DNA from: Siphonodentalium dalli | Lineage: Eukaryota > Mollusca > Scaphopoda > Gadilida > Siphonodentaliidae | Length of the DNA stretch: 64,000 nt | Reading direction: 5' to 3' | NCBI GenBank assembly: GCA_032622095.1 | Contig: CP136069.1 | Coordinates: forward strand, 203,654,690-203,718,689 | Shown: one piece after another, positions 10,896 through 43,440 of the stretch | How positions within the stretch are numbered: position 1 is the stretch's first letter | Layout: every line of letters begins with the position of its first letter | The notes under the pieces: generated by a model | The model's input: the letters and a program-made list of their open reading frames with translations, nothing else | Told to the model about the DNA's origin: nothing | Database searches by the model: none | Made by a program: the position numbers and the translations under genes

Positions 10896-11123
10896 TAGGA
10901 TATGTGTCCTTTCTTTGTTTCACTAATGTTTGGCGATGTGAAAGCAATACAATGAATGTGTGTTTTATTGAGTATAAGTAGGAATCCCATTCACTGTATG
11001 CGATACAATAACAACCAGCCTCTATGGCATAAGCCGAGAATCAATTATCGAGTGCTTTCATTCAGACTGTCTCGTGGCGGGATAGTGTTGCATGATTGTT
11101 AAACTTAATCCGTCCGATGGCAG

Positions 11124-11690: not shown

Positions 11691-11736
11691 ATGTAGCTGA
11701 TATCTAGCATCATCACTTTTAAACTGAACATATTAA

Positions 11737-12128: not shown

Positions 12129-12132
12129 TTAA

Positions 12133-12656: not shown

Positions 12657-12749
12657 ATCTCCCTCTTTTCTCTTTTTGTTGTTGTTTTAGTTCTTTTGAT
12701 AAAACCACAGAAATATTTACAAATATACAGTCCGTATCATCCATTTCTC

Positions 12750-13328: not shown

Positions 13329-15181
13329 TGCTCTAGCCAGCTCACATATATATTATAGTGTTATTTAATATTCAAAGTTACTTGTGATTATTGTTTCTTC
13401 GATATCAACGTGTGTCATATGTGGAGTTAATTGGATTATACAGTATATTGTATACTAATTTCATTATAACACTTGTGACAAAGGATGCAGGTTGTTGAAG
13501 TTATATCAACGTTATCATGCAGTCATATTTCACACATTGGCTCCAAAGATAAGTGAGTAGCAGAGTAGCATCATTTAAACTCTTTCTTGTTTCTACATTC
13601 ATAACGGTAACCACGAATAACATATCATACTAAACAATCTTTGCGCTGGCGCACATTTGAAAACAGTTTTTAATTCATATATGTAGTATATTTATGAAAA
13701 AAAATGGTACCCCCCACTTTTTTGTAGCTTCCGCCGCCCCTGCCAGTCAGCTTGTCATACTGATGAGTATCAGAGTATGTTCTGATCAACTAGAGCAGCG
13801 CCTGCAATGGCTGCAGCCGGTTCATTGGTTGGCTTGTACACATGACTGGGGTAATATTGTACCAAGCGTGTTAGAGCAAGTAATTGGTTAATCGCTATAT
13901 AAAACTGGTTGTTATTATTATTATTATAAGTGAAGGATTCTTTCCCTCCATAATAATTCTTAATATGCTTCCTTCACAAGAACCATCAGGTCTATTTTAC
14001 TGATATTTAGTATGAAGGGTTCTTTGGTGACTTGGATTCAAATTTATTGAGATGGGGTCACCAGGTCAAATAGGGCGGGACCAGGGACATAACTATTTGT
14101 CTCTATAGTAATTCTTAAAATATCTTCTCAAGAGTGGTTGGACTATTTAGCTTACATATAGTATGGAGGATCTTTTAGTGACTGAGAATCAGATTTGTTA
14201 ACATGAGGTCAACTCATTAAGAAATGACGGGGCTATGGGGACTTAAGACTTTTGTGTCTAATAAAATCATTAAAATACAAAATTCATTAAAACATCTACC
14301 TTGGAACTACCTGACTGATTAATCTGACATACATATAGTGTTTTTGGGTCCATGGATAATTGGGCTTTAAACATGTCTAAATGGTTTTATAAAAAGGCAC
14401 TTGTGGGATTGGAAAGTTTGAGATGTCGGTTGTGAAATTCCAACCTAATACTTGGGAGTCTGGAGCCCTGTCGGGAGGGGACATGTTGAGCTGGAGGAGG
14501 GGGGGGGGGGTGATCAGTAGTGTACAGTTGGTAATTTAAAGGTAGATATTCACTGATCTACATACATGAAGCCTCTCTAGCCACATATCCTGTTTAGATC
14601 TAATTCTTTTAAAGTGATTATGAAAAGTTCTGACTGTTGTGGTCTCCAGAGTCCCAGTCTTATCAGTCTTTGCAGTCTGGTGAGCGACCCCACAGTCTTT
14701 GACTGTCTTGTTTAAAAAGGAGCTTGTGAGATTGGAAATTTCCAAAAATTGAGAGAGTTTGAGGTGTCGGTTGGGAAATTCGAACATAAGGGGGTGCACA
14801 AAAGTATTTACGAACTTGGGAGTCCTGTCGGGAGGGGACTTGTTATGAGCTAAAATTGGGGGGGGGGGGGGGGGGTTGATCAGCAGTGTACAGTTGGTAA
14901 TTTCAAGGTGGACATTCACCGATCTACATGCATGAAGCCTCTCTAGCCACATGTCCTGTTTAGAACTACTTCTTTTAAAGTGATTATGACAAGTTTTGAC
15001 TGTTGTGGTCTCCAGTGAATATTTTTAGCCACTTTTCATTTACTTGAGCCACATTTTTTCAACTCATATTTTTTGGAGCCACTTTGATTTAAACATATTC
15101 AAATAACAACACAAGCTAATTAACTCAAATATTTATTATAATATAATATAACAGGTTTTGGTAGGTAAAACAACAACAATA

Positions 15182-15425
15182 TTAATAATCAAACATTGAA
15201 ATTCTGCGATATTTTACATCTGTCCATTTATTAAATGCTTTACCAAAATTAAAGTCTGACATTGGAGGGCCTTCAATTGCAATTTTCATTAATAAGTTTA
15301 AATGTGGAACAGAAAGTCTGTTTCGCTGTTTATCTTTGATTAAATGTTGGTACGAGAAGGCCCTCTCACATTCCACATTCAACACGGTACACAATATGGT
15401 GTTTATACAAAGTCTGATATAGGAT
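15182..15425 (-). pseudogene. hAT transposase C-terminal remnant, unit 2
   Basis: Same segment as in unit 1 with the motif ECERAFSYQHLIKDKQRN, ending SMFDY at 15182. The open frame extends upstream to 15514, but the residues beyond the motif (GFLLILNKTH...) look like non-coding read-through. No catalytic core is present. Confidence 0.7.
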
Positions 15426-16260
15426 ATGTGTCCTTTCTTTGTTTCACGAATGTTTGGCGATGTGAAAGCAATACAATGAATGTGTGTTTTATTGAGTATA
15501 AGTAGGAATCCCATTCACTGTATGCGATACAATAACAACCAGCCGCTATGGCATAAGCCGAGAATCAATTATCGAGTGCTTTCATTCAGACTGTCTCGTG
15601 GCGGGATAGTGTTGCATGATTGTTAAACTTAATCCGTCCGATGGCAGTTAATTTAAGAGCCACACACCCAAATTCTTTGAGCCACTTTCTTTTACAGCCA
15701 CTAGCACATATTGTTTAGCCACTTTTGTTTTTCTTTCGCTATTTGCGAAATTTGCCCACGGCAGCATGAACACTTCTCATGTACTCTACGAACAATCCAA
15801 ACAACATGAGTTTATGACTCAGATTTAGTGTACATTCCCCCTTTAAGTGATACCCATATTCTTGTCAAATGAGGGCCCTTGAACCATCAGAGAATGGCAT
15901 GTTTGCATGGCTCATGTAATGTAACACAATTGAGTCTGTCCCATTCAAGATAGTTTCCACTAAAAAGGTTTAATTTATCAAGAGAGATGGAAATGTATAG
16001 AAGACATCAAAAATAGTGGTCACAGTGTGCAATAATATGTAGTTTCTTCTGCGATAAAGGAAAGCAATGTCAGTACACATGACTTTTCATGATCCTCCAA
16101 TACTGGATTCTGACAAGGGTATACATCTTCCCGATACAGATGATTTCTTTCCTTTTTTAGAACAGACTCATAGCCTAACATAAACAACTTAAAATCTCGG
16201 TCTTTGTCAGGCACATGTAGCTGATATCTAGCATCATCACTTTTAAACTGAACATATTAA

Positions 16261-16652
16261 CCCTTTACCCAACAAACCGGCCAAAACCGGCCAAATAAAG
16301 CTTCAACAGCCTAAAATATCTTCGGTCTGTCTCAATAGAACCATACAAATATGGATATCATTGGAACCGGCTCCTTGACCACATTGTGATAGTTACAGTT
16401 ATGTCCTGTGCCAATGCATTCTCTTATATATGCGAGTCGACCATAGGTCGCCTCACATATATAAGAGAATGCATTGGCCTAAAAAAAATCTTTTTTTAAC
16501 ACTTTTTACCATTTTTTCTTACATTCTTTAACAATTTTATAATTTTTAATGTGTTAAGCCAATGCATTCTCTTATATATGCGAGGCGACCTATGGTCGAC
16601 TCGCATATATAAGAGAATGCATTGGCACAGGGCCCTTCTGTTGGGTAAAGGG
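16261..16652 (+). mobile_element. TTAA-flanked double-hairpin MITE, unit 2
   Basis: Passenger copy of the unit 1 MITE with TTAA at 16257-16260 and 16653-16656. It shares the right-end variant GGCCCTTCTGTTGGG with unit 1. Confidence 0.85.
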
Positions 16653-17272
16653 TTAAGCCAGTATAGAAGCATGAACAGAAGAGCACCTGGACATTTCTTT
16701 AAAACATTTGTATATTCGTGGAGATATGATAATCAGGTGTCCTCAAAATCTTTGTCTAAACCACTAGATTGATGTTAATGGCTAATTACCTATTATATCT
16801 CCACAGCACACTTGTGACTTCCTTCACTCCAATTCAAACTCTAACTGCATTTCTGTCCATGATGTCATTTTCAGGTCATGAGTTCACTTCCTGTTTCACT
16901 GATGTTAATGCTTGCTTGCTTGTTGTGGATTTCCCTCCTTTAAGTGAGGAGCACCCCATTATAATGGGTATAAAAATAATGGAAGTAAAAATAAGTCAAA
17001 TAAGACCAGGTAAAACTACAGTAATGATAAAATAGTTGGTAAAATTGTGGTACTAGTGAGTTAAAAGATTTGTGTGTGCGTAAGTTGCACTTAAAAACTT
17101 TTAAGTTGAGCTTTCATATGTACAGATGACACTGTAGCTCTTCCTGTTTCACTGATGTTAATGACACTGTAGCTCAACAATCTCCCTCTTTTCTCTTTTT
17201 GTTGTTGTTTTAGTTCTTTTGATAAAACCACAGAAATATTTACAAATATACAGTCCGTATCATCCATTTCTC

Positions 17273-17851
17273 CTAAATGTCAATTGCTACTTTCCCTCTC
17301 TGGAATGTAGCAATCAGCTGCTCGCCGGAAGCACCTCGTTTTGTTAGGCAATTTGCAAGCTGACTCGAACCTGAGCACCATCGAATGCTTTCTACTTCAC
17401 CTCGATCAAGACATTGTTTCATCGCACCAATATCGATTCGAAGGCGTTTATCATCAACCATTTTAGTTGTGTGCACAGCTTCCACCACACTCCTGTTATC
17501 CACATAGGCAACAATGGGGATCTTTGTCTCTTGGATACTGCACAATTCACATAACACTTTCCTGACATATATCGCCTCCTCGACACCTTCCTGCAAGCTC
17601 ATTGCTTCGGCAGCCAATGTTGAACGCACCACTCTTTTTATCTTATGGCAGTTCCAAGATAGAGGACAGCTCAATTTATCTGGATTTACGACAAATAGAA
17701 CATATGCCATTGTACTGCTGATTCCATCAGGCAAATTTGCATAAGCAGCATCTGTAAAAACCACTAATTTCCACTTATCATCTGAAGGAAGTCCCATGAA
17801 TGGAAATCGAATTGATGTTGTCTCAGATTTCACTCTTGATATTATCTTCAC
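17273..17851 (-). pseudogene. Copia RNase H fragment, uninterrupted frame (unit 2)
   Basis: Its 192-residue translation is identical to that of the unit 1 copy, with the four acidic RNase H residues retained. It is cut at 17866 by the array junction and is preserved through recent duplication. Confidence 0.85.
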
Positions 17852-19717
17852 TGCTCTAGCCAGCTCACATATATATTATAGTGTTATTTAATATTCAAAG
17901 TTACTTGTGATTATTGTTTCTTCGATATCAACGTGTGTCATATGTGGAGTTAATTGGATTATACAGTATATTGTATACTAATTTCATTATAACACTTGTG
18001 ACAAAGGATGCAGGTTGTTGAAGTTATATCAACGTTATCATGCAGTCATATTTCACACATTGGCTCCAAAGATAAGTGAGTAGCAGAGTAGCATCATTTA
18101 AACTCTTTCTTGTTTCTACATTCATAACGGTAACCACGAATAACATATCATACTAAACAATCTTTGCGCTGGCGCACATTTGAAAACAGTTTTTAATTCA
18201 TATATGTAGTATATTTATGAAAAAAAATGGTACCCCCCACTTTTTTGTAGCTTCCGCCGCCCCTGCCAGTCAGCTTGTCATACTGATGAGTATCAGAGTA
18301 TGTTCTGATCAACTAGAGCAGCGACTGCAATGGCTGCAGCCGGTTCATTGGTTGGCTTGTACACATGACTGGGGTAATATTGTACCAAGCGTGTTAGAGC
18401 AAGTAATTGGTTAATCGCTATATAAAACTGGTTGTTATTATTATTATTATAAGTGAAGGATTCTTTCCCTCCATAATAATTCTTAATATGCTTCCTTCAC
18501 AAGAACCATCAGGTCTATTTTACTGATATTTAGTATGAAGGGTTCTTTGGTGACTTGGATTCAAATTTATTGAGATGGGGTCACCAGGTCAAATAGGGCG
18601 GGACCAGGGACATAACTATTTGTCTCTATAGTAATTCTTAAAATATCTTCTCAAGAGTGGTTGGACTATTTAGCTTACATATAGTATGGAGGATCTTTTA
18701 GTGACTGAGAATCAGATTTGTTAACATGAGGTCAACTCATTAAGAAATGACGGGGCTATGGGGACTTAAGACTTTTGTGTCTAATAAAATCATTAAAATA
18801 CAAAATTCATTAAAACATCTACCTTGGAACTACCTGACTGATTAATCTGACATACATATAGTGTTTTTGGGTCCATGGATAATTGGGCTTTAAACATGTC
18901 TAAATGGTTTTATAAAAAGGCACTTGTGGGATTGGAAAGTTTGAGATGTCGGTTGTGAAATTCCAACCTAATACTTGGGAGTCTGGAGCCCTGTCGGGAG
19001 GGGACATGTTGAGCTGGAGGAGGGGGGGGGGGGGGGGGGGGTGATCAGTAGTGTACAGTTGGTAATTTAAAGGTAGATATTCACTGATCTACATACATGA
19101 AGCCTCTCTAGCCACATATCCTGTTTAGATCTAATTCTTTTAAAGTGATTATGAAAAGTTCTGACTGTTGTGGTCTCCAGAGTCCCAGTCTTATCAGTCT
19201 TTGCAGTCTGGTGAGCGACCCCACAGTCTTTGACTGTCTTGTTTAAAAAGGAGCTTGTGAGATTGGAAATTTCCAAAAATTGAGAGAGTTTGAGGTGTCG
19301 GTTGGGAAATTCGAACATAAGGGGGTGCACAAAAGTATTTACGAACTTGGGAGTCCTGTCGGGAGGGGACTTGTTATGAGCTAAAATTGGGGGGGGGGGG
19401 GGGGGGGGGTGGTGATCAGCAGTGTACAGTTGGTAATTTCAAGGTGGACATTCACCGATCTACATGCATGAAGCCTCTCTAGCCACATGTCCTGTTTAGA
19501 ACTACTTCTTTTAAAGTGATTATGACAAGTTTTGACTGTTGTGGTCTCCAGTGAATATTTTTAGCCACTTTTCATTTACTTGAGCCACATTTTTTCAACT
19601 CATATTTTTTGGAGCCACTTTGATTTAAACATATTCAAATAACAACACAAGCTAATTAACTCAAATATTTATTATAATATAATATAACAGGTTTTGGTAG
19701 GTAAAACAACAACAATA

Positions 19718-19961
19718 TTAATAATCAAACATTGAAATTCTGCGATATTTTACATCTGTCCATTTATTAAATGCTTTACCAAAATTAAAGTCTGACATTG
19801 GAGGGCCTTCAATTGCAATTTTCATTAATAAGTTTAAATGTGGAACAGAAAGTCTGTTTCGCTGTTTATCTTTGATTAAATGTTGGTACGAGAAGGCCCT
19901 CTCACATTCCACATTCAACACGGTACACAATATGGTGTTTATACAAAGTCTGATATAGGAT
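19718..19961 (-). pseudogene. hAT transposase C-terminal remnant, unit 3
   Basis: Identical in its motif region to unit 2. The frame is open from 20050 down to 19718. It survives as a passenger of the tandem duplication and has no catalytic domain. Confidence 0.7.
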
Positions 19962-20782
19962 ATGTGTCCTTTCTTTGTTTCACGAATGTTTGGCGATGTG
20001 AAAGCAATACAATGAATGTGTGTTTTATTGAGTATAAGTAGGAATCCCATTCACTGTATGCGATACAATAACAACCAGCCGCTATGGCATAAGCCGAGAA
20101 TCAATTATCGAGTGCTTTCATTCAGACTGTCTCGTGGCGGGATAGTGTTGCATGATTGTTAAACTTAATCCGTCCGATGGCAGTTAATTTAAGAGCCACA
20201 CACCCAAATTCTTTGAGCCACTTTCTTTTACAGCCACTAGCACATATTGTTGAGCCACTTTTGTTTTTCTTTCGCTATTTGCGAAATTTGCCCACGGCAG
20301 CATGAACACTTCTCATGTACTCTACGAACAATCCAAACAACATGAGTTTATGACTCAGATTTAGTGTACATTCCCCCTTTAAGTGATACCCATATTCTTG
20401 TCAAATGAGGGCCCTTGAACCATCAGAGAATGGCATGTTTGCATGGCTCATGTAATGTAACACAATTGAGTCTGTCCCATTCAAGATAGTTTCCACTAAA
20501 AAGGTTTAATTTATCAAGAGAGATGGAAATGTATAGAAGACATCAAAAATAGTGGTCACAGTGTGCAATAATATGTAGTTTCTTCTGCGATAAAGGAAAG
20601 CAATGTCAGTACACATGACTTTTCATGATCCTCCAATACTGGATTCTGACAAGGGTATACATCTTCCCGATACAGATGATTTCTTTCCTTTTTTAGAACA
20701 GACTCATAGCCTAACATAAACAACTTAAAATCTCGGTCTTTGTCAGGCACATGTAGCTGATATCTAGCATCATCACTTTTAA

Positions 20783-21164
20783 CCCTTTACCCAACAAACC
20801 GGCCAAATAAAGCTTCAACAGCCTAAAATATCTTCGGTCTGTCTCAATAGAACCATACAAATATGGATATCATTGGAACCGGCTCCTTGACCATATTGTG
20901 ATAGTTACAGTTATGTCCTGTGCCAATGCATTCTCTTATATATGCGAGTCGACCATAGGTCGCCTCGCATATATAAAAGAATGCATTGGCCTAAAAAAAA
21001 TCTTTTTTTAACACTTTTTACCATTTTTTCTTACATTCTTTAACAATTTTATAATTTTTAATGTGTTAAGCCAATGCATTCTCTTATATATGCGAGGCGA
21101 CCTATGGTCGACTCGCATATATAAGAGAATGCATTGGCACAGGGCCGTTCTGTTGGTTAAAGGG
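20783..21164 (+). mobile_element. TTAA-flanked double-hairpin MITE, unit 3
   Basis: Passenger copy with a small deletion at its left side (one ACCGGCCAA word is lost) and with the right-end variant GTTGGTTAAAGGG. TTAA lies at 20779-20782 and 21165-21168. Confidence 0.85.
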
Positions 21165-21784
21165 TTAAGCCAGTATAGAAGCATGAACAGAAGAGTACCT
21201 GGACATTTCTTTAAAACATTTGTATATTCGTGGAGATATGATAATCAGGTGTCCTCAAAATCTTTGTCTAAACCACTAGATTGATGTTAATGGCTAATTA
21301 CCTATTATATCTCCACAGCACACTTGTGACTTCCTTCACTCCAATTCAAACTCTAACTGCATTTCTGTCCATGATGTCATTTTCAGGTCATGAGTTCACT
21401 TCCTGTTTCACTGATGTTAATGCTTGCTTGCTTGTTGTGGATTTCCCTCCTTTAAGTGAGGAGCACCCCATTATAATGGGTATAAAAATAATGGAAGTAA
21501 AAATAAGTCAAATAAGACCAGGTAAAACTACAGTAATGATAAAATAGTTGGTAAAATTGTGGTACTAGTGAGTTAAAAGATTTGTGTGTGCGTAAGTTGC
21601 ACTTAAAAACTTTTAAGTTGAGCTTTCATATGTACAGATGACACTGTAGCTCTTCCTGTTTCACTGATGTTAATGACACTGTAGCTCAACAATCTCCCTC
21701 TTTTCTCTTTTTGTTGTTGTTTTAGTTCTTTTGATAAAACCACAGAAATATTTACAAATATACAGTCCGTATCATCCATTTCTC

Positions 21785-22363
21785 CTAAATGTCAATTGCT
21801 ACTTTCCCTCTCTGGAATGTAGCAATCAGCTGCTCGCCGGAAGCACCTCGTTTTGTTAGGCAATTTGCAAGCTGACTCGAACCTGAGCACCATCGAATGC
21901 TTTCTACTTCACCTCGATCAAGACATTGTTTCATCGCACCAATATCGATTCGAAGGCGTTTATCATCAACCATTTTAGTTGTGTGCACAGCTTCCACCAC
22001 ACTCCTGTTATCCACATAGGCAACAATGGGGATCTTTGTCTCTTGGATACTGCACAATTCACATAAAACTTTCCTGACATATATCGCCTCCTCGACACCT
22101 TCCTGCAAGCTCATTGCTTCGGCAGCCAATGTTGAACGCACCACTCTTTTTATCTTATGGCAGTTCCAAGATAGAGGACAGCTCAATTTATCTGGATTTA
22201 CGACAAATAGAACATATGCCATTGTACTGCTGATTCCATCAGGCAAATTTGCATAAGCAGCATCTGTAAAAACCACTAATTTCCACTTATCATCTGAAGG
22301 AAGTCCCATGAATGGAAATCGAATTGATGTTGTCTCAGATTTCACTCTTGATATTATCTTCAC
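21785..22363 (-). pseudogene. Copia RNase H fragment, uninterrupted frame (unit 3)
   Basis: Its translation is identical to that of units 1 and 2. One DNA difference (ACATAAAAC for ACATAACAC near 22066) is silent on this strand. It is cut at 22378 by the array junction. Confidence 0.85.
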
Positions 22364-24226
22364 TGCTCTAGCCAGCTCACATATATATTATAGTGTTATT
22401 TAATATTCAAAGTTACTTGTGATTATTGTTTCTTCGATATCAACGTGTGTCATATGTGGAGTTAATTGGATTATACAGTATATTGTATACTAATTTCATT
22501 ATAACACTTGTGACAAAGGATGCAGGTTGTTGAAGTTATATCAACGTTATCATGCAGTCATATTTCACACATTGGCTCCAAAGATAAGTGAGTAGCAGAG
22601 TAGCATCATTTAAACTCTTTCTTGTTTCTACATTCATAACGGTAACCACGAATAACATATCATACTAAACAATCTTTGCGCTGGCGCACATTTGAAAACA
22701 GTTTTTAATTCATATATGTAGTATATTTATGAAAAAAAATGGTACCCCCCACTTTTTTGTAGCTTCCGCCGCCCCTGCCAGTCAGCTTGTCATACTGATG
22801 AGTATCAGAGTATGTTCTGATCAACTAGAGCAGCGCCTGCAATGGCTGCAGCCGGTTCATTGGTTGGCTTGTACACATGACTGGGGTAATATTGTACCAA
22901 GCGTGTTAGAGCAAGTAATTGGTTAATCGCTATATAAAACTGGTTGTTATTATTATTATTATAAGTGAAGGATTCTTTCCCTCCATAATAATTCTTAATA
23001 TGCTTCCTTCACAAGAACCATCAGGTCTATTTTACTGATATTTAGTATGAAGGGTTCTTTGGTGACTTGGATTCAAATTTATTGAGATGGGGTCACCAGG
23101 TCAAATAGGGCGGGACCAGGGACATAACTATTTGTCTCTATAGTAATTCTTAAAATATCTTCTCAAGAGTGGTTGGACTATTTAGCTTACATATAGTATG
23201 GAGGATCTTTTAGTGACTGAGAATCAGATTTGTTAACATGAGGTCAACTCGTTAAGAAATGACGGGGCTATGGGGACTTAAGACTTTTGTGTCTAATAAA
23301 ATCATTAAAATACAAAATTCATTAAAACATCTACCTTGGAACTACCTGACTGATTAATCTGACATACATATAGTGTTTTTGGGTCCATGGATAATTGGGC
23401 TTTAAACATGTCTAAATGGTTTTATAAAAAGGCACTTGTGGGATTGGAAAGTTTGAGATGTCGGTTGTGAAATTCCAACCTAATACTTGGGAGTCTGGAG
23501 CCCGGTCGGGAGGGGACATGTTGAGCTGGAGGAGGGGGGGTGGGGGGTGATCAGTAGTGTACAGTTGGTAATTTAAAGGTAGATATTCACTGATCTACAT
23601 ACATGAAGCCTCTCTAGCCACATATCCTGTTTAGATCTAATTCTTTTAAAGTGATTATGAAAAGTTCTGACTGTTGTGGTCTCCAGAGTCCCAGTCTTAT
23701 CAGTCTTTGCAGTCTGGTGAGCGACCCCACAGTCTTTGACTGTCTTGTTTAAAAAGGAGCTTGTGAGATTGGAAATTTCCAAAAATTGAGAGAGTTTGAG
23801 GTGTCGGTTGGGAAATTCGAACATAAGGGGGTGCACAAAAGTATTTACGAACTTGGGAGTCCTGTCGGGAGGGGACTTGTTATGAGCTAAAATTGGGGGG
23901 GGGGGGGGGGGGGGGGGGGGGTGATCAGCAGTGTACAGTTGGTAATTTCAAGGTGGACATTCACCGATCTACATGCATGAAGCCTCTCTAGCCACATGTC
24001 CTGTTTAGAACTACTTCTTTTAAAGTGATTATGACAAGTTTTGACTGTTGTGGTCTCCAGTGAATATTTTTAGCCACTTTTCATTTACTTGAGCCACATT
24101 TTTTCAACTCATATTTTTTGGAGCCACTTTGATTTAAACATATTCAAATAACAACACAAGCTAATTAACTCAAATATTTATTATAATATAATATAACAGG
24201 TTTTGGTAGGTAAAACAACAACAATA

Positions 24227-24470
24227 TTAATAATCAAACATTGAAATTCTGCGATATTTTACATCTGTCCATTTATTAAATGCTTTACCAAAATTAAAGT
24301 CTGACATTGGAGGGCCTTCAATTGCAATTTTCATTAATAAGTTTAAATGTGGAACAGAAAGTCTGTTTCGCTGTTTATCTTTGATTAAATGTTGGTACGA
24401 GAAGGCCCTCTCACATTCCACATTCAACACGGTACACAATATGGTGTTTATACAAAGTCTGATATAGGAT
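24227..24470 (-). pseudogene. hAT transposase C-terminal remnant, unit 4
   Basis: Same dimerisation-domain fragment. Upstream sequence differs from units 2 and 3 by a few substitutions (for example SETKKG instead of RETKKG) and matches unit 1 at several diagnostic sites. Confidence 0.7.
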
Positions 24471-25305
24471 ATGTGTCCTTTCTTTGTTTCACTAATGTTT
24501 GGCGATGTGAAAGCAATACAATGAATGTGTGTTTTATTGAGTATAAGTAGGAATCCCATTCACTGTATGCGATACAATAACAACCAGCCTCTATGGCATA
24601 AGCCGAGAATCAATTATCGAATGCTTTCATTCAGACTGTCTCGTGGCGGGATAGTGTTGCATGATTGTTAAACTTAATCCGTCCGATGGCAGTTAATTTA
24701 AGAGCCACACACCCAAATTCTTTGAGCCACTTTCTTTTACAGCCACTAGCACATATTGTTGAGTTATTTTTGTTTTTCTTTCGCTATTTGCGAAAAATTT
24801 GCTCATGGCAGCATGAACACTTCTCATGTGCTCTATGAACAATCCAAACAACATGAGTTTATGACTCAGATTTAGTGTACATCCCCCCTTTAAGTGATAC
24901 CCATATTCTTGTAAAATGAGGGCCCTTGAACCGTTAGAGAATGGCATGTTTGCATGGCTCATGTAATGTAACACAATTGAGTCTGTCCCATTCAAGATAG
25001 TTTCCACTAAAAAGGTTTAATTTATCAAGAGAGATGGAAATGTATAGAAGACATCAAAAAGTGGTCACAGTGTGCAATAATATATAGTTTCTTCTGCGAT
25101 AAAGGAAAGCAATGTCAGTACACATGACTTTTCATGATCCTCCAATACTGGATTCTGACAAGGGTATACATCTTCCCGATACAGATGATTTCTTTCCTTT
25201 TTTAGAACAGACTCATAGCCTAACATAAACAACTTAAAATCTCGGTCTTTGTCAGGCACATGTAGCTGATATCTAGCATCATCACTTTTAAACTGAACAT
25301 ATTAA

Positions 25306-25697
25306 CCCTTTACCCAACAAACCGGCCAAAACCGGCCAAATAAAGCTTCAACAGCCTAAAATATCTTCGGTCTGTCTCAATAGAACCATACAAATATGGA
25401 TATCATTGGAACCGGCTCCTTGACCACATTGTGATAGTTACAGTTATGTCCTGTGCCAATGCATTCTCTTATATATGCGAGTCGACCATAGGTCGCCTCG
25501 CATATATAAGAGAATGCATTGGCCTAAAAAAAATATTTTTTTAACACTTTTTACCATTTTTTCTTACATTCTTTAACAATTTTATAATTTTTAATGTGTT
25601 AAGCCAATGCATTCTCTTATATATGCGAGGCGACCTATGGTCGACTCGCATATATAAGAGAATGCATTGGCACAGGGCCGTTCTGTTGGTTAAAGGG
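25306..25697 (+). mobile_element. TTAA-flanked double-hairpin MITE, unit 4
   Basis: Passenger copy with TTAA at 25302-25305 and 25698-25701. It shares the right-end variant GTTGGTTAAAGGG with unit 3, while its left side resembles units 1 and 2. Confidence 0.85.
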
Positions 25698-26292
25698 TTA
25701 AGCCAGTATAGAAGCATGAACAGAAGAGTACCTGGACATTTCTTTAAAACATTTGTATATTCGTGGAGATATGATAATCAGGTGTCCTCAAAATCTTTGT
25801 CTAAACCACTAGATTGATGTTAATGGCTAATTACCTATTATATCTCTACAGCACACTTGTGACTTCCTTCACTCCAATAAGCCATGTAAACATTCCGCAG
25901 CGAATTGGAGGTCAGAGGTCAAGTGAGATAATATCCGCTGAACTTGTGTGTCGTCAGTGTAAATAATCGGCTGTCAAAACGATTTAGCTGTCACTATTTT
26001 ACGCAATATCGTAACTTTTTAGCCTTGGATACAAAAATGAATAGAAGATGTGTCCTGTGGTTGCATCTTGCCGGCTTCTAGTCATGCAGTAAAAGCAAAA
26101 ATTGTGTTTTTATTAGGTAAATCTCGGCAAAAATCGAATGATTTCTACGATGCCACCGGGCCCGATGGTTGACAGTCAAAATTCAATGGCTGTCGCATTC
26201 TCTATCTTTTTGCAAAGAAGCTTGGAACTTGATATATAACTGCCCAAAGTAATTAACAATTATTTGGCTGGGCAAACTGATTATTAATAATC

Positions 26293-26673: not shown

Positions 26674-27122
26674 AGAACACAATCTGCTGGAACTAACAGG
26701 CCTCCAAATATCACCTTTGTACTGTTAGACTTTCTATTGACTTTGTGAAGTTTGTCAACCTCAACCTGCTACTTGGATCTTTTCTTTCCGTGGGGAATAC
26801 AAGCAACACAAAACATCTACTTGGTACTCCATCGCCCCCAACGTGCTGAGGATTATGTGGAGGTGACATACATGTACATGTATATTTGTCGAAAACCATT
26901 CTTGCATTTATGAATTTCACAGATTTTCTCCTTCCATTTATCCAAATGGTATGCGCCACACCCTTTAATTGCACATATTCTCATAGTGATACTAGTACTG
27001 CCATGAAAAGAGAAAGAAGGGGTATGCATAACTGCCATAAGAACAGAGAAAACGAGACTGGTAGTGGAATATAATAACAGTGAATAAATATGGGGCGCCG
27101 TTCCTCTATTTATCCCCTATTT

Positions 27123-27625
27123 AGAGATATCTCCAATTCATTTGGAGATATCTCCAATTCATTAGGAGATATCTCCAATTCATTAAGAGATATCTCCAAT
27201 TGTTATGGAGATATCTCCAATTGCCAAGGAGATATCTCTTAATTCGCGAGGAGATATCTCTAAATCACAAGCAGATATCTCTTAATTCACGAGGAGATAT
27301 CTCTTAGCCACGAGGAGATATCTCCTAGGCTGCTGAATTAAGAGATATCTCCTCGATCACTAAGAGATATCTCCAAATGACTAAGAAATATCTCCTCGCG
27401 AATTAAGAGATATCTCCAATTGCCAAGGAGATATCTCTTAATTCGCGAGGAGATATCTCTTAGTGGCATGATTTAGAGATATCTCTTAATTCGCGAGGAG
27501 ATATCTCTAAATCGCTAGGAGATATCTCTTAATTCACGAGGAGATATCTCTTAGCCAGGAGGAGATATCTCTTAGTAGTGCTGAATTGGAGATATCTCTT
27601 CGTGACCGAGGAGATATCTCTTATT
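27123..27625. repeat. Left array of GAGATATCTC palindromes (~23 copies)
   Basis: About 23 copies of RGATATCTCY or one-base variants, spaced roughly 18-30 bp apart. Linkers alternate among CAATTCATT, TTAATTCGCGAG, TAAATC and TTAGCCACGAG. Spacers are not unique in the CRISPR sense and several are inverted forms of one another. Subterminal arrays of this kind are transposase-binding regions in several DNA transposons; that role here is inference. Confidence 0.9.
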
Positions 27626-27854
27626 CAGTTTTGGGTCAGAGAACATTAAGAATTTCTCCCCCAGCAAGTGTTTTTTTTGCCAGCCATTGTGAATATTTTA
27701 TGGGTTCATTTCGTTATGGCAGAAGGGCGAGCACACACGATATATTTATGCATGTGCAACAAAACCTATTAAATGGACAGAGTATAATAATTTGGACTGT
27801 AGCAGAGTATATATTTTATTTACCACTTGGATTTGGGGAGAATATCATTCCGTC

Positions 27855-27862
27855 TATATAAG
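27855..27862 (+). promoter_or_regulatory. TATA-like box inside the nested unit
   Basis: TATATAAG followed by GCGGCCGG stands out in otherwise AT-rich text, about 230 bp inside the left palindrome array. It looks like a pol II core promoter directed rightward. No clear downstream coding frame on the + strand is seen, so what it would drive is unknown. Confidence 0.35.
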
Positions 27863-28554
27863 GCGGCCGGATGCTGTGTTCGTAGTATCATCGTTGGGCT
27901 CCACGGTCAATTTGGCTTCCCATATGCATGCAGGTGTTTGATGATCCAAATCAATTATATCATATTGTCAAATCACTTTTTCACCAGATCCATGATTATA
28001 TAACGAAAGCATTATATTTATGGCAATGTTGCCTTACAGCTTTGCCATCAACACCAGTTCTCAGTTCACAAAATTCATGTTTATTCTTCACAAATCAGTA
28101 GTGCATCGACGGCTTCTTTCGTCCCTGAATTATTCTCCTCGTACGGTAATTGACATAGCTAAAATAACCAAGGGACATCTGGCGACATAAGAGTTTCTGT
28201 GGCATCACGTTCCTTACAGGGCCTGTATACATGTTCTCGTGTTTTTTGCATGCACCTATACATTGTACCTATATATATATAGTACTATATCACTTGACAC
28301 TATAGTAACACTGTTCGAATTTTGTGAATCCAGTCGTATTTTTCGATTTGATAACACATCATTTGACAGTCATTTTCATTCTGTCTGACGTCTATACAAA
28401 TATGTCACAATGTGACAGGAATTGGGTCCGGGAACTCCTTAGTGGGGCTAAGGACACGCACAAAATACTTGCTGCATATATATGTCCAATTTTAACGGTA
28501 TCCACAGTTAATTTCTCGTTTCAGCAACAACTAATTAATCCATAAATACCTATT

Positions 28555-28854
28555 TTATCTGTTTGATTTTAGCGTAGGAAAGGGCGTCAAAGTTACATTT
28601 TGCAAGTGATTTTCTCCACATTTCTTACTGCCATTGTTGCATAAGCCATACCAACAATTGCGGTGGCCCCTTTTTTTCAAAGTTATTATAAGACCCACCA
28701 TCACTGTTTTATGGGATGACATGTTTACATTGCGCAAGGAAGGGCAACGTATTGTAATACCCGGAGAATGTCCGATCCTCTGTTTATAAACAACGCCAGG
28801 TGCTCTCGCTGTTCTATAAATAGCATCATTGAGTGCTATTGAGGGATCCTTCAT
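28555..28854 (-). pseudogene. THAP-like domain exon (N-terminal part)
   Basis: The 99-codon reverse frame contains KKRGHRNCWYGLCNNGSKK and LTPFPTLKSNR. The Cys-x4-Cys pair (C67, C72) followed by a short loop and a PFP element is the start of a THAP zinc finger as found in transposases (C-x2-4-C ... C-x2-H). The second Cys/His pair is missing before the stop at 28555, so the domain is incomplete or continues in another exon. The likely true start is near M45 or later; residues before K60 look non-coding. It lies between the palindrome arrays and points left, opposite to the YqaJ-like frame. No DDE domain is found in the window. Confidence 0.45.
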
Positions 28855-28884
28855 TTTAAGCCTGTTTCAGTCAACACTGCCGAA

Positions 28885-29305
28885 TTGGAGATATCTCTTA
28901 GCGGCCGAGGAGATATCTCTTAATTCAGCAGTACTAAGAGATATCTGCTCGTGGCTAAGAGATATCTGCTCGCGAATTAAGAGATATCTCTAAATCACTA
29001 AGAGATATCTCCTCGCGAATTAAGAGATATCTCTAAATCATGCCACTAAGAGATATCTCCTCGCGAATTAAGAGATATCTGCTAATGAATTGGAGATATC
29101 TCTTAATTCGCGAGCAGATATCTCTTAGTGATTTAGAGATATCTCTTAATTCGCGAGGAGATATCTCCTCGATCATGTCGATTAAGAGATATCTCTAAAT
29201 TGCTAGCAGATATCTCTTAATTCGCGAGGAGATATCTCTAAATCGCTAGGAGATATCTCTTAATTCACGAGGAGATATCTCTTAGCCACGAGGAGATATC
29301 TGCAA
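28885..29305. repeat. Right array of GAGATATCTC palindromes (~19 copies)
   Basis: Mirror of the left array: about 19 copies of the palindrome with the same family of linkers (TTAATTCGCGAG, TAAATC, CTCGCGAATTAA). It ends in GATATCTGCAAATAGGGG at the right TIR. Variants with a G in the last arm (GATATCTGC) are more frequent here than in the left array. Confidence 0.9.
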
Positions 29306-29341
29306 ATAGGGGATAAATAAAGGAACGGCGCCCCATAAATA

Positions 29342-31090
29342 AATTCTGGGGCAACTGCCAAACAGGTGATTTGATAGAAGTACAATGAATATCTCTGGCA
29401 TTAACTGGAAAACAGGCAAAAGCAAATAGAAGACCAATGAAGAAACTCACAAGTAACTGAACAAAATGCATAAAAGTGAATAGAAAAGAATGAAAAATTC
29501 TGTCCTGCTCCTGAAAAGTGAAGCAACCTTGGGAGCATATATACATTGCATAAGGATGAAGTATAAAATTTATTATTTATGATTAAAAATTATTTTATAT
29601 GGTATCATCCATATGCATGAAATTTGTTGGTGTCAATTTATCAAGCTTTATATGATATATATTTTAAAAGTACAATAATGGCTAAAATTAGCCAAGTGTC
29701 AAGATTTCAAATCGATCATGTCGAGAAAACATTGATATTTTCATGGTATATTCAAATGAGAGGCAGTATAAAGGGTTACCTCACCTTTTAATGCACATTG
29801 AGCTCAAGATTCCCTTCCCTGTAGTGCTCCAACAACTTGAGCATGTATTAAATCATGTCACGAATCTCTACTCTGGATGACGCCCGTAGAGTAGAGATTC
29901 ATGGCATGATCTAGAGCATGTATATACATTACCTAATCTCCGGTATATTTGATATGGGTTTATACTATACAATAAGAAAAATATATCCACTTTCTGGCAT
30001 GCCCAACATTTATACATATGTTCACTGTGTTAGTTGGATTCTCGGTAGGCAGAACTTCCTTCTCGGTGAGCTGGCCATATGTACCACAGCAGTAATTATG
30101 GCAGAAATCCCACCCGCAATCCAAATTAAATTGAAAGTTTGGGTAGATAATTCACCCCCATTTTCAATTTAGGATAAACGTCCCCTGTATGCACCCAAAT
30201 ACTTGATTAGACCTCTGCAATTTTAAATTTTAATTCTATGTTATGTTCCATCAAGATGGCTATAACAAATTCAGCTATTTTAATGGTCATTGGACGTGAG
30301 AAGCATATATCAATGTTTTTTGTTTGACCCAATGCATATATGATATATATATTATTACCCCATTATTGTAAACAGAAAGTAGATATTTTGAAAATACTGT
30401 GCACCAAAATTGGTGACAATAACAAACCACTATTACAGGGAGATGAAGATAAATATGAGCAAATGGAGTATAAGAATACTTAAAATAGTAATTAGAATAA
30501 TAGTTGCTAGTAAAAAGTATTGTGAAAAAGGCAACGATTAATAGAATACATTGTGTTGTTAGCTGTGAAAAGTCTCCGAATTAGCACATGTCCACATTCA
30601 TATGAGGATCGGAAACGAGAACGAGGAAGTGAGGTTGCTAATGGTAGGCTAGACTAAAGCATTATTTTAATTAATGCTTAAATTTCCAGTTATGAAACTA
30701 CTTTTTAAATATTTATGAAAATAATCACACGTTTGCTTCTTCAAGATTATGGACCATATGGCACATATTGTATCTTATTTTAATTAACAGCTAAATAATA
30801 GTGCAATTCACCAAAGTGATCACCTATCATTATTAATTACAGGATGATCTCAGGTTTATATCCGTTGTCAGTGTTGACATCGCTTGAATCACTGACGAAG
30901 CCAAAATCACCAGATCACGGCTGACGAAGCAAAATAAAAAAGGTTATTTTCTACAATTTAAATATTAAAAGATTCATAAAACTGGCTGAGTCATGACAAA
31001 TAGTTTATGTTTATATAACATTGCTTATTTCTTTAATTTGAAGCTAACCTCGTTAAAACACAGGGTAATGATCGTTAATCGTATTAGTTT
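29342..31090. other. Right interior of the 5.3-kb element, no gene recognised
   Basis: AT-rich, with an imperfect hairpin at 29851-29911 (arms AATCTCTACTCT / AGAGTAGAGATT extending to ~23 bp with two mismatches). Around 30868-30935 short words TCACTGACGAAGC and GGCTGACGAAGC repeat. The expected C-terminal YqaJ or DDE coding regions are not visible. Confidence 0.5.
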
Positions 31091-31384: not shown

Positions 31385-34300
31385 CTAAATGTCAATTGCT
31401 ACTTTCCCTCTCTGGAATGTAGCAATCAGCTGCTCGCCGGAAGCACCTCGTTTTGTTAGTCAATTTGCAAGCTGACTCGAACCTGAGCACCATCGAATGC
31501 TTTCTACTTCACCTCGATCAAGACATTGTTTCATCGCACCAATATCGATTCGAAGGCATTTATCATCAACCATTTTAGTTGTGTGCACAGCTTCCACCAC
31601 ACTCCTGTTATCCACATAGGCAACAATGGGGATCTTTGTCTCTTGGATACTGCACAATTCACATAACACTTTCCTGACATATATCTACTCCTCGACACCT
31701 TCCTGCAAGCTCATTGCTTCGGCAGCCAATGTTGAACACACCACTCTTTTCATCTTATGGCAGTTCCAAGAGAGGACAGCTCAATTTATCTGGATTTACG
31801 ACAAATAGAACATATGCCATTGTACTGCTGATTCCATCAGGCAAATTTGCATAAGCAGCATCAGTAAAAACCACTAATTTCCACTTATCATCTGAAGGAA
31901 GTCCCATGAATGGAAATCGAATTGATGTTGTCTCAGATTTCACTCTTGATATGATCTTCACTTCTCTAGCCAGATCACAAACTTGACCTTTTCTGAATTT
32001 AGTGCTCAGTTCTATTAACTCAAAAGCCAAATCAGGTCTTGTCCCTTGCACAATCCAATTTAGACTTCCAACAATAGAACGCAGATCAGTGTATTCATTC
32101 ATACTTAATTCATCATTTTTGAAGGCAACTCTTTCCGCACGTAACTCAATGTCTCTTACTCCATGAATATAGTTATTCTGGTGCAGAATTATTTCATCAA
32201 CTTTCTGTTCAATGTGGAACCCAACGTAAGTGAATTTTACCTCCTCTACTTTTCCAGCTAGGAAACGCTGTCGCAAGCCACGCATTACATGTTCGTTAAA
32301 ATCCTTATCACCAGCATGAAGAAAGTCATCCACATGGCTGAGAAGTATTCCTTGTAGTTCACCATCTTTTCCTCGTTTGTAGAACAGAGAAGGATCTAAT
32401 GTAGATAACTCACAACCAAGATGATTTAGTTCATGTACAACACTTGTGTAGAATTGCTGAGCTGTGCTGCATCTTTTAAACCATACAAGCATGTTTTCAA
32501 CTTCCAAACTTTTCCTTCTGTCTGAGCTTCTTTAGGAGGTCTGATGAAGACTTCCCTTTCTAATTTTTTTCCTTGGAGGAACGCTGACTTAATATCAGTT
32601 GTTTTAACATTCCATTTTTTATTTACTGCCAATGTCAAGGATAGTCTTATGGCTACTTTGCTTACAGTAGGTGAATCATTTTGTGTCAAACCTTCCTCCT
32701 CAAATCCACGGGCGACTAAACGGGCCCGGACATCAGCTCCCCGTTGTGTCAGTACCCAGCGTGTAGAAATGCATTGTTGTCCATTTTCATTTACCTCTTC
32801 ATAAGTATCAAAGTCCTTTAACTTCTGAAGCTCTTGAATTATTGCATTCCCACACGAAGGATCATGAAGTCTGTCCTTTGGCACAAATGTCATCAACACT
32901 TCTTCGGTTTGACTGGTCCTTTTCCACTGAACACTATTCAAATCAATACTCATTTTGTTTCCATCTTTCATCTGTAGATTGAACCAGGATTTATTTGTTC
33001 CAGTCGCTTTCCCAGCTCTACCAATAACAGTACCAGGAATCCATTCATCTCCATCTTCCAGATGATACTCAATTTCATCACCTGTTTTCAGCATGATCTT
33101 CTCGTCTGACGCAGCTTTGGGTGTCACAATGTTCTGAACAGAATCTTTTTCACCGACGTTTTCTGTGAATACTTCAATTTTCGACTCAACTGCTTGTTCG
33201 ACACACGTATCTTCTTTAAGATCACCTGGATCTGGGTTCATATTGTAAGAGTTGGCTTTAATAAGTCGGTTTGGAGAAACTCTCACAAATGTTCCTCCAT
33301 GTCTCAGAAACACAACTTTGCCATCTTGGAAAACCACTTTTGCAGGTCCAAGCCATTTGTCTTTTCCTTCCCTTTTATAAAACACTCTATCTCCATTAGA
33401 ATAGCACTGTTCTGCTGCCCTGACCTTGCCTCGTAGAGCCCGTCGGATTCTCTCATCAGCTTCTGTCTGAATAAATGCCCTACGAGCAGAATGTAGAGTA
33501 TTCATGTGTTCTGCAAAGACTTCACTCATTGTTTTACCATCCATTGCTGCAATATTATCTGTCATGATGTTGGGTATTTTCGGATTGAAGCCGAACACAA
33601 GTTGATAACTACTGAACCCATTCCACATTTGTAATGAATTACGAGCCATATTGGCCCAACATAACAGAATATCATCAGGAGTGTCCTTGTTATCATCTTG
33701 AAGTTTTAGCAGCATAGAATCTGTTATTGAATGTACTCGTTCACAAAGCCCATTCTGAAATGGAGTGTATGCAGCTGTTGTGCACAACTGCACATTGAGA
33801 ATCAACGAAACTTCTCTCAATTCATCATTATTAAACTCGCCGCCATTATCATGCAACACTGATCCAAATACGCCAAATATTCCTATCCAGTGTTTGATAA
33901 TCTTGTCGATAATTTCTCTTGGAGTTTTTCTCTCTATAAACACAGATAATGTTAGTCTTGACCACATGTCAATAATATGAAGAATCCATCGGTTACCCCA
34001 TTTTTTCAAGTCAATGGCAACCTTTTCATTGAAGCTTTTCGCCATGGGAAATGAGACAACAGGCCGTGGCAGTGTTGGAGCATGCATTTTGCAAATATCA
34101 CAGTTGTCTCGAATGTTCTCCAAAACATTACTAAACTTTTCTTGCCACACACCTGCATCCTTTAGTAATGCTATCAATCGATTGGTTGGTGGATGAGCGA
34201 ATTGTCTATGTAATTTATAAAGTACTTTGGACAATTCATTGTCGCCTAAATCACTCAAATTAACACTGAACACTTCTTGAACATCCATTCCACCATCTAG

Positions 34301-34543
34301 TGCAATGCAATAGTGACCAGAAGTAGTTAGGTTAAAACACACATCTTTGCCCAGAATATTTGCTGAATCATTTTCGATATCAAGCCTCACTTGTGCACGC
34401 TTCATCGCATCCTTTGAAAGGAGAAGAGGAATGTCAGATACAACAACATCTGTTTTTATGATAACTTTCTTTCCAACAATCTTTGCGGGAATACTATATT
34501 CTCCCATTGATCGAATCTGTGTCCCACCTCCGAATTTGAACAT
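31385..34543 (-). pseudogene. Copia-type pol, 5'-truncated and frameshifted
   Basis: Read on the reverse strand from 34543. The first frame (705 codons, to 32426) begins inside the protease region (FKFGGG), with no gag. Integrase follows with the zinc finger H112, H117, C148, C151 and the catalytic triad D178, D232, E268 (DD35E), then the first half of Copia reverse transcriptase (KTTDIKSAFLQGKKL). A frameshift near 32465-32480 moves the reading to a second frame (32507-31755) with SHVDDFLHAG in place of YVDD and the start of RNase H. Compared with the array copies, a 2-nt deletion near 31770 shifts the frame again, and two nonsense changes (near 31686 and 31460) break RNase H. Upstream sequence ends at 34545 against a MITE. 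The element cannot encode a working polyprotein. Confidence 0.9.
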
Positions 34544-38874: not shown

Positions 38875-40370
38875 GTAAGTGTTATAGGTGCAGTTTTCTT
38901 TTAACCCCTTGTACCCTACTTTATTTATCTAGTGACGATGATCAGCGTAAGTGCTATAGGTGCAGTTTTCTTTTAACCCCTTGTACCCTACTTTATTATA
39001 CCCCCTTTAAAAAAAAAAAGGGGGGTATACTGTTTTGCACCTGTCCGTCCGTGAGTCCGTCCGTCCGTCCGTCCGATGTCTGTTCGTGTCATAACTTGAA
39101 CAGTAGTGCTCGGATCTCAATGAAATTAGGTATGGATGTTCACTATTATGAGGACATTAAATAGAGGGTTCCATCGTTTTGTTTGGATTTTCCATTCTAG
39201 AGTTATTTATCTTAGTTTATCTGGAAATAGTGGCTTTTTGGTCCGTCTGGTGTCGGTTCATGTCGTAACTTCAACAGTTGTGCTGGGATCTCAACCAAAT
39301 TTGGTGTGGATGTTCACAACTATGAGGACATTAAATAGAGGGTTCCATCGTTTTGTTTGGATTTTCCATTCTAGAGTTATTCATCTTTGTTTATCTTGAA
39401 ATGTTGGATTTTTGGTCCATCTGGTGTCTGTTCATGTCATAACCTGAACAGTAGTGCTCGGATCTTATTGAAATTTTGTATGGATGTTCACTACTATGAG
39501 GGCATTCAATAGAGGGTTCCATCGTTTTGTTCGGATTTTCCATTCTAGAGTTATACATCTTTGTTCATCTGGAAATGTTGGCTATTTGGTTCGTCTGGTG
39601 TCTGTTCATGTCGTAACTTCGACAGTTGTACTGGGATCTCAATGGGATTTGGTATGGATGTTCACTACTATGAGGACATTAAAAAGAGGGTCCATCGTTT
39701 TGTTCCGCTTTTCCATTCTAGAGTTATTCATCTTTGTTCATCTGGAAATGTTGGCTTTTTGGGCCGTCTGGTGTCTGTTCATGTCGTAACTTCAACAGTT
39801 GTGCTGGGATCTCAATGGAATTTGGTATAGATGTTCACTGCTATGAGGACATTCAATAGGGGGTTCCATTGTTCTGTTCTGCCTTTCCATTCTAGAGTAA
39901 TTCATCTTGGTTTATCTGGAAATGTTGGCTGTTTGATCCATCCGATGTTTGTTCAGCTCATAACTTGAACAGTAATGCTCGGATCTCAATGAAATTTTGT
40001 ATGGATGTTCACCACTATGAGGACATTTAATGGCACATTAAAATGTTTGTTTTGGTTTTTTGTTCTATATTTATTCATCTTTGTTTATATGAAAATGCTG
40101 ATTTCTGGGTCCATATGTCTGAGTATAGCCATCATAAGTTATAGATGTGCCCACACTAGGCGGTATGCCACGAGGGGGTATGCATCGGACGACAGTCCAT
40201 CTCTTGTTTATCTAGTGACGATGATCAGCGTAAGTGTTATAGGTGCAGTCTTCTTTTAACTCCTTGTTCCCTACTTTATTTATCTAGTGACGATGATCAC
40301 CGTAAGTGTTATAGGTGCAGTTTTCTATTAACCTCTTGTACCCTACTTTATGTAAAGCCACATGGCGATT
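38855..40370 (+). repeat. 72-bp repeats duplicating the exon end and splice donor (4 copies)
   Basis: The segment TCTAGTGACGATGATCAGCG plus GTAAGTG and about 45 bp of intron (ending CCTTGTACCCTACTTTAT) occurs at 38855, 38927, 40211 and 40283. Donor GT positions are 38875, 38947, 40230 and 40302, exactly 72 apart within each pair. The pairs are separated by the 1.2-kb HINE element 38998-40208. Copy 4 has CAC in place of CAG before the donor. Confidence 0.92.
38998..40208 (+). mobile_element. HINE/pearl-type element with readable empty site
   Basis: It starts ATACCCCC with a 5' inverted repeat (TACCCCCTTT ... AAAGGGGGGTA), a GTCCGTCC run at 39045-39075, then about six 170-175 bp units (ATGGATGTTCACTACTATGAGG, TTCCATTCTAGAGTTAT). 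It ends in a G/C-rich hairpin region plus CTCTTGTT. The host repeat reads CTTTATTTATCTAG when uninterrupted (38921-38934) and CTTTATT / TATCTAG around the element. Insertion was therefore between two Ts without duplication, as expected for Helentron-type elements. Confidence 0.8.
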
Positions 40371-42369: not shown

Positions 42370-43440
42370 CAGGGTTGGGGTGATTACACGCCAATGTAAT
42401 CGATTACAATTACTTTTGATTTACATGATTACGATTACTGATTACATTTTTATACGCCCTTTTTGAAAAAAGGTCGTATTATGTTATCAGTCTGTCCGTC
42501 CGTCTGTCAGTCAGTCCGTCCGTCCGTCCGTCTGTCTGTCCGTCCGTCCGTTAACATTTTTGGTTTCCGATCGATAACTCCAGTTTGGATTATTTGATCT
42601 GAACCAAAGTTGGTATGTGTATTTCCCAGCTAAAGATACAGGCCAAGTTCGAATATAGGTTCCGTCCAAATATTTTTTACATGAGTTACGGCCCTTTTTC
42701 GACTTAGAATTTGACCGTCATTTAACATTTTTGGTTTCCGACCGATAACTCCAGTTTGGATTATTTGATCTGAACCAAAGTTGGTATGTGTATTTCCCAG
42801 CTAAAGATACAGGCCATGTTCGAATATGGGTTCCGTCCAATTATTTTTACATGAGTTACGGCCCTTTTTCGACTTAGAATTTGACCGTCTGTTAACATTT
42901 TTGGTTTCCGACCGATAACTCCAGTTTGGATTATTTGATCTGAACCAAAGTTGGTATGTGTATTTCCCAGGTAAAGATACAGGCCAAGTTCGAATATGGG
43001 TTCCGTTCAGTTATTTTTACATGAGTTACATTTTTTTTTTTCAACTTGGAATTTGACCAATTTCATAACATTTTGGTTTCCGACCGATAACTCCAGTTTT
43101 TATTATTTGATCTGAACCAAAGCTGGTATGTGTATTTCCCAGCTAAAACTACAGTCCAAGTTTGAATATAGGTTCTGCCTAATTATTTTTACATGAGTTA
43201 TGGCCATTTTTTCGACTTAGAATTTGACCACATTTTGGCATTGAAATTAGGGGTATATCAGATTTTCTTCAAATGTAAGCTCAAAGTATTATCTTATTTT
43301 GTGATAGTACAATTCGAAATGGTTAAAGGGCGTATTTTGCCACGCCCTAGCGATGCTCTTGTTTCCAATGTAATCGATTACGATTACAATTACTTTAGTA
43401 AATGTAATCGATTACTTTTCGATTACATCTGATTACAAGT
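42370..43440. mobile_element. hAT-like terminus (CAGGGTTGGGG) split by a HINE insertion
   Basis: CAGGGTTGGGGTGATTACA at 42370 followed by TAATCGATTACAATTAC repeats looks like a hAT-type end with subterminal repeats. The same TAATCGATTAC text resumes after 43364. No matching right terminus or 8-bp duplication was found, so this is a partial element. Confidence 0.4.
42451..43363 (+). mobile_element. HINE/pearl-type element
   Basis: 5' inverted repeat ACGCCCTTTTTGAAAAAAGG..CGT, GTCCGTCC run at 42485-42550, then four ~175-bp units (GATAACTCCAGTTTGGATTA, GAGTTACGGCCCTTTTTC). The 3' hairpin GGGCGTATTTTGCCACGCCC is followed by TAGCGATGCTCTTGTT. The flanks ATTTT/TCCAATG fit insertion at a T-T step. 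Confidence 0.75.

Follow-up and report, generated by a model that had tools for sequence, protein, structure and literature searches.

Introduction

Elements of the P superfamily such as Galileo duplicate 8 bp of their target, Polintons end in AG..CT, and the Pfam family PF24764 may mark integrases of the IS3EU type. It has been described for Galileo that the THAP domain binds several sites in the long repetitive ends of the element, and the authors of that work suggested that such multiple binding sites supply specificity (PMC3688188). For IS3EU, TA..TA termini and, as a rule, 6-bp target duplications have been reported, and for GingerRoot 6-bp duplications and mostly TA..TA ends, the latter group not being cleanly separate from IS3EU in the published tree and both having an integrase-like DDE transposase without the HHCC motif (PMC10045372). 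ISL2EU elements encode THAP and YqaJ proteins and duplicate AT in an A-AT-T target (PMC4482050), and Dada is reported to be without terminal inverted repeats and to insert in small-RNA genes (PMC3706591).

In this work we analysed a stretch of 64,000 nucleotides from the scaphopod Siphonodentalium dalli, the whole of which is referred to as the window. It contains an element whose two ends are dense arrays of the palindrome GAGATATCTC. Galileo offers the closest tested comparison. The element is like Galileo in its internally repetitive ends, the arrays here being putative counterparts of the several transposase-binding sites; Galileo differs in its THAP transposase and in having, as described, three sites, of which two lie within long direct repeats, versus dozens of phased palindromes here (PMC3688188). 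With IS3EU and GingerRoot it has in common the TA..TA termini and the 6-bp target duplications; it differs in that the window copy is non-coding and in its palindrome arrays, which do not appear in the part of the IS3EU description consulted (PMC10045372). Foldback-type elements and MITEs, compared by structure only, are also non-coding, with inverted repetitive ends and variable cores. No description of palindrome arrays in IS3EU was found in the open-access literature, and no transposon paper was recognised by title among the open-access matches listed for GAGATATCTC itself. Our reading is that the element is probably a non-autonomous, IS3EU-like DNA transposon of the integrase type, with arrays that serve as recognition sites for its transposase.

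Structure of the element in the window

The element occupies positions 27089-29337 and is flanked on both sides by AATAAA, a 6-bp target duplication (Table 1). Terminal inverted repeats of about 43 bp had been proposed to surround the arrays in an earlier note on this DNA; such repeats are present and begin TATGGGGCGCC, their length being 34 bp with one mismatch between the ends, and the element extends 3 bp further on each side than had been thought. Exact matches to the palindrome GAGATATCTC number 34 across the window and lie without exception within 27124-29281, compared with a mean of 0.07 and a maximum of 1 in 100 shuffles. When up to two mismatches are allowed there are 42 sites (34 exact and 8 with one mismatch), 23 on the left and 19 on the right, which reproduces the approximate count in the earlier note. 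The 40 steps between neighbouring sites measure 21 bp (18 steps), 22 bp (16) or 26-28 bp (6); with 34 of 40 steps at 21 or 22 bp the arrays thus keep close to two helical turns, and a phase that had been called irregular is in fact regular. It had also been suggested that the mirror arrays could pair, and they are indeed inverted copies of each other over 246 nt at 90% complementarity; they also self-fold strongly (DNA folding z = -20). The linkers which had been noticed to recur, i.e., TTAATTCGCGAG, its inverse CTCGCGAATTAA and TAAATC..., are present. Nothing matched the element in an Rfam scan, and a scan for bacterial promoters and terminators, designed for bacteria and not for this genome, gave results at shuffle level.

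Table 1. Features of the element in the window, and perfect-palindrome arrays at PF24764 integrase loci.
Feature	Position or locus	Strand	Remark
Left target-site duplication AATAAA	27083..27088	.	identical to 29338-29343
Left terminal inverted repeat TATGGGGCGCCGTTCCTCTATTTATCCCCTATTT, 34 bp	27089..27122	+	one mismatch versus right end
Left array, 23 sites (GAGATATCTC, two with one mismatch)	27124..27620	.	steps 21/22 bp, few 26-27
Left remainder of older core	27621..27923	.	pieces in common with L013, L017, L021
Captured piece of unrelated dispersed ~1.8-kb repeat	27924..~28841	.	87-89% identity to four array-free loci
Right array, 19 sites (13 exact, six with one mismatch)	28888..29302	.	mirror of left array
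Right terminal inverted repeat	29304..29337	-	pairs with left end, one mismatch
Right target-site duplication AATAAA	29338..29343	.	identical to left duplication
GGCGTTTAAACGCC, 30 copies	R5, L073
CCTGATATATCAGG, 36 copies	R6, L074		35 in L078
TCGTGGCCACGA, 41 copies	R7, L075
TCGAGATCTCGA, 17 copies	L117
AAGTTAGCTAACTT, 13 copies	L118
TCCTAATTAGGA, 36 copies	L121

The core between the arrays, which had been taken for a single unit of 1.25 kb, is chimeric, the stretch from 27924 to about 28841 belonging to an unrelated dispersed repeat (Table 1). The captured piece includes the right terminus of that 1.8-kb repeat (last 11 bp by eye), and a TATA-like TATATAAGG lies at about 27855-27863 inside the remainder of the older core. 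The core differs in other copies of the element. The dispersed repeat itself (L060-L063) has the ends CAATAGC...GCTATTG and a weak THAP-like trace on the minus strand. No coding gene was found in the cores of this element family by tblastn with ISL2EU proteins or with a profile of five integrases. A candidate integrase N-terminus near 27815-27890 was rejected, the profile of R4-R8 having matched nothing there. The tblastn search did give one THAP-like match, 22 residues long and located where the captured core is decayed, which Pfam did not recognise as THAP, and a motif scan of the window yielded no THAP gene and no other convincing candidate. This short stretch may be the source of the THAP protein to which the palindrome had been linked in the earlier note, a link that is not supported here; the 6-bp duplication does not suit ISL2EU, the THAP-transposase group tested, either.

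Several other repeats were seen in the window. Three near-identical tandem copies (98-99% identity, about 4.5 kb apart) lie at 10896-25878, their RNase H frames (12750, 17273 and 21785) being of the copia type, and a copia-type element lies on the minus strand at 31755-34543 (RVT_2, E 1.6e-18; rve weak and below cut-off). Long tandem arrays at 49562-52848, 45425-47822, 39067-40109 and 42544-43235 have self-match steps of about 70, 160, 174 and 171 bp, respectively.

Copies, target duplications and sister families

The terminal repeat of the window element, searched as a 23-bp part with up to three mismatches, is found at 391 + 395 places in the genome, of which 100 were listed, against 9 + 9 for a reversed-pattern control, and pairs of GAGATATCTC spaced 11-12 bp apart are found at 3051 places (control 0). 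The expectation of genome-wide clusters with common terminal repeats is thus borne out and uniqueness of the array is excluded. At 48 different ends the three positions outside GGGG are T, A and T in 46, 46 and 47 cases, position by position, so that the termini follow the pattern TATGGGG..CCCCATA and have the TA..TA ends of IS3EU. Outside TAT..ATA, the adjacent six bases agree fully (6/6) in 17 of 23 end pairs and at five or more positions in 20 of 23, compared with 2 and 16, respectively, of 506 mismatched pairs. These 23 pairs comprise 21 from the window family (F1) and two from a sister family (F2), L009 and L023 having identical flanks; the six pairs without a perfect duplication include L003 (1/6), L023 (4/6) and one in which an inner end was used as the right end (2/6). 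The duplicated 6 bp vary from copy to copy. The view in the earlier note of a mobile element, bounded by terminal repeats and with relatives elsewhere in the genome, is supported, the relatives being many.

Copy L013 is nested in the array of another copy, at the exact centre of a palindrome, with GATATC duplicated. The sequence obtained by joining its two flanks exists without an insert in L006, L020 and L030 (34 bp each) and in the window (30 bp), and this paralogous empty site shows one insertion. The span concerned, L013:1264-5833, is an insertion of one copy into the centre of another copy's palindrome. A further observation is that L001 and L002, 2.3 Mb apart on C1, are identical in the left 15-bp outer flank and in array positions and may therefore be a segmental duplication.

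Array length differs among copies and nested inserts are present in some. The longer copies L009 and L010 hold LINE-type reverse transcriptase or endonuclease, the longest interior frame of the 6.7-kb core of L011 had no Pfam match, and no Pfam family was above cut-off in pieces of L026, L068 and L027. An end pair at C9:105077332-105108943 has four of six duplicated bases (by eye). A giant parent element at C4:131104840-131137510 (32.7 kb, perfect ACAGGG duplication) was considered and rejected; in the three interior pieces read, one of which includes 2500 N, there are array fragments at scattered positions and a compact core of the family, and this end pair is therefore taken to bound an old copy into which other elements have inserted. 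Within L068:1153-3410, inside this interval, there are frames 129-152 residues long for which no Pfam family passed its cut-off.

Other linkers were already visible among the first 100 listed of the 3051 palindrome pairs, and the reading of nine loci revealed two sister families with the same palindrome. The terminal repeat of F2 (TATGGGGCGCCATCCCTG...) occurs at 347 + 364 places and that of F3 (TATGGGCAGC...) at 372 + 339, both with a control of 0. In F3 the duplications, scored by eye, are 6/6 in four of eight pairs (two of the four with common flanks) and 5/6 in one; the remaining three have none, two of them showing a shifted repeat. F1, F2 and F3 have an identical palindrome but different linkers and inner terminal repeats. 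Steps of 21-22 bp make up 392 of 493 in F1 (14 loci) and 41 of 84 in F2, where a further 20 are of 43 bp, and 39 of 41 steps in F3 are of 20-21 bp.

Palindrome and linker bases were compared in aligned ends at non-CpG sites, where variation was 0.156 for palindrome vs 0.245 for linker bases in the A (left-type) ends and 0.087 vs 0.140 in the B (right-type) ends. Within the arrays only, with G/C and A/T taken apart and CpG excluded, the excess conservation of the palindrome holds at A ends (1 and 0 of 5000 permutations); at B ends, with G/C and A/T likewise apart, it is marginal (351 and 240 of 5000), the permutation test ignoring the relatedness of copies.

Palindrome arrays at integrase loci

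A genome search for PF24764 (rva_4, integrase core) gave at least 126 matches, 150 of 241 candidates having been scored. Twenty-one loci were read, eight over 6.5 kb and thirteen over 0.9 kb on the 5' side, together with a second copy for each of three families. In a scan for perfect palindromic 8-mers that recur, arrays were detected at six of the 21 loci (3/8 and 3/13, respectively) and at none of 26 controls. The six palindromes all differ from one another (Table 1), and with few exceptions their steps are 20-22 bp or twice that. Tandem Repeats Finder (TRF; period 17-26 or 38-46) reported arrays, some not palindromic, at 11 of the 21 loci against one of 27 controls, where the period was 41 bp; that control, at L058:1-440, is a 41-bp tandem array of 10.8 copies near a PF13359 gene and the only control locus with an array. 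The other 10 loci have no array in the span read, which was 0.9 kb for 13 of the 21. None of the 21 loci as read has an array of GAGATATCTC, so that no transposase gene was found with it, nor was a transposase remnant found in F1 cores. The start of the array lies some 0.45 kb from the PF24764 match, on its 5' side, in R5-R7; the one array seen in R8 is short, a 20-bp unit present five times. Arrays of 20-23-bp units that are not perfect palindromes were also observed near PF24764 genes at L072:1684-2251, L070:4631-5573, L116:314-547 and L127:296-561, those of L116 and L127 having a common imperfect inverted unit GGAGA...TCTCC. Occurrences of TATGGGG near PF24764 genes were tried as element ends and rejected; their contexts failed to pair.

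Families R6 and R7 have TA ends and 6-bp duplications and carry PF24764. The R6 terminal repeat (TACGGCGGCCTGG...) is found at 239 + 280 places and that of R7 (TATGGAGCCCC...) at 427 + 393, each with a control of 0. An R6 element of 28.2 kb known from its ends, C4:26576442-26604659, is bounded on each side by the R6 terminal repeat and, outside it, by GTTTTA; its left end holds 37 palindromes, and 1.7 kb inward from its right end lies a PF24764 gene (last 100 bp read). A non-coding R6-type copy, L097, has 7 + 12 palindromes at its two ends and CATACC on both sides. The duplication is 6/6 in six of eight further R6-type end pairs, leaving two of ten without a perfect one. Among 100 listed R7 places, 11 of 17 neighbouring pairs are 6/6 and six are not perfect; mismatched pairs gave 0 of 272.

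The exons of R5-R8 have a helix-turn-helix-like N-terminal region followed by an integrase core of the form D-58-D-38 to 40-E. The helix-turn-helix matches are weak, both being below cut-off (HTH_Tnp_Tc3_2, E 4e-4, in R6; HTH_33, E 0.008, in R7), and a PDB sequence search with the R6 exon gave no matches at E up to 1. In a tree of nine sequences R5-R8 group at 94/98 and are joined by R4 at 82/85.

Discussion

The transposase-carrying relatives have other palindromes at the same spacing, and on this ground the palindromes of the window element are probably the places where the mobilising enzyme of such elements lands. The proposal in the earlier note that dense subterminal arrays are transposase sites remains the best explanation, arrays of the same pitch being found at six of 21 PF24764 loci and binding at them being the predicted function. 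The element would move by cut and paste with its transposase supplied in trans. A dimer of the transposase's N-terminal helix-turn-helix would sit on every perfect palindrome, the two-turn spacing would align neighbouring dimers along the same side of the double helix, and the large number of sites at either end could then lead to a cooperative, family-specific assembly of the paired ends. Since the array adjoins the 5' side of the transposase gene in the transposase-bearing relatives, binding there could also regulate that gene.

As to classification, the window family fits IS3EU, and we infer that it is a member. Its placement in some other group with 6-bp duplications, i.e., GingerRoot, Dada or relatives of Polinton, is less likely; of these GingerRoot is a candidate, being close in both its duplications and its ends and itself poorly separated from IS3EU (PMC10045372). 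Dada was rejected on the ground that the window element has 34-bp terminal inverted repeats and duplications which vary by copy, against the reported lack of such repeats and insertion inside small-RNA genes (PMC3706591). The 6-bp duplication of the window family also separates it from Galileo and other P elements. Polintons are set apart by their termini.

A less likely account still is that the ends are mobile and the arrays a neutral by-product, in which the palindromic units would multiply through slippage driven by hairpins, or through gap repair, with no need of binding. Strong self-folding, variable array length with nested inserts, units at some PF24764 relatives that are not perfect palindromes, and weak conservation of palindrome over linker at B ends are all in its favour. 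Slippage alone, however, fails to predict a pitch of 20-22 bp at six unrelated palindromes, one per gene, or the retention of one palindrome in three families despite different linkers and inner terminal repeats.

ISL2EU, a group of the PHIS superfamily with a THAP-HTH-DDE transposase and a YqaJ protein, was considered first for the element because its flanks, AT-GGGG..CCCC-AT, resemble AT duplications beside G-rich ends with GG and because ISL2EU is very abundant in this genome (PF13359, 150 scored of 910 candidates; PF09588, 150 of 328); two ISL2EU copies moreover begin ATGGGCAG. That placement was rejected on the 6-bp duplication outside TAT..ATA and on the empty site, which exclude classical ISL2EU, the duplication of the latter being AT (PMC4482050). 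Regions upstream of 20 PF13359 genes contain no array (at most one near-match each), and ISL2EU proteins have no match in F1 cores beyond the 22-residue trace. Membership is very improbable. An ISL2EU copy at L057:492-800, whose transposase has a THAP-like start, has its own unrelated subterminal direct repeats (TTAAAGKGACA...). Equally improbable is that the ends are incidental and the element serves the host in regulation or replication or as a satellite, as the TATA-like sequence and CpG-containing linkers might suggest. Against this stand the dispersed copies, which number in the hundreds and have their ends and target duplications in common, the lack of an Rfam match and a core captured from elsewhere; none of the observations made here requires a regulatory or replication role.

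Returning to recognition by a transposase, the palindromes at the integrase loci differ and their pitch is kept. It is conceivable, though we advance it tentatively and as somewhat less than probable, that this integrase-type lineage marks its ends with a family-specific palindromic "barcode" for transposase dimers, that element and enzyme recognition co-diverge, that each barcode insulates its family from its neighbours in the genome, and that the window element bears one without an enzyme of its own. If the arrays are transposase sites, they constitute a natural experiment in protein-DNA recognition, with at least six integrase genes each having its own palindrome at one pitch and non-autonomous families using a seventh. 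It would then become testable how transposases shift their recognition sequence and how co-resident families avoid moving one another, and "satellite-like" subterminal arrays, which annotation may file as minisatellites, would have a function.
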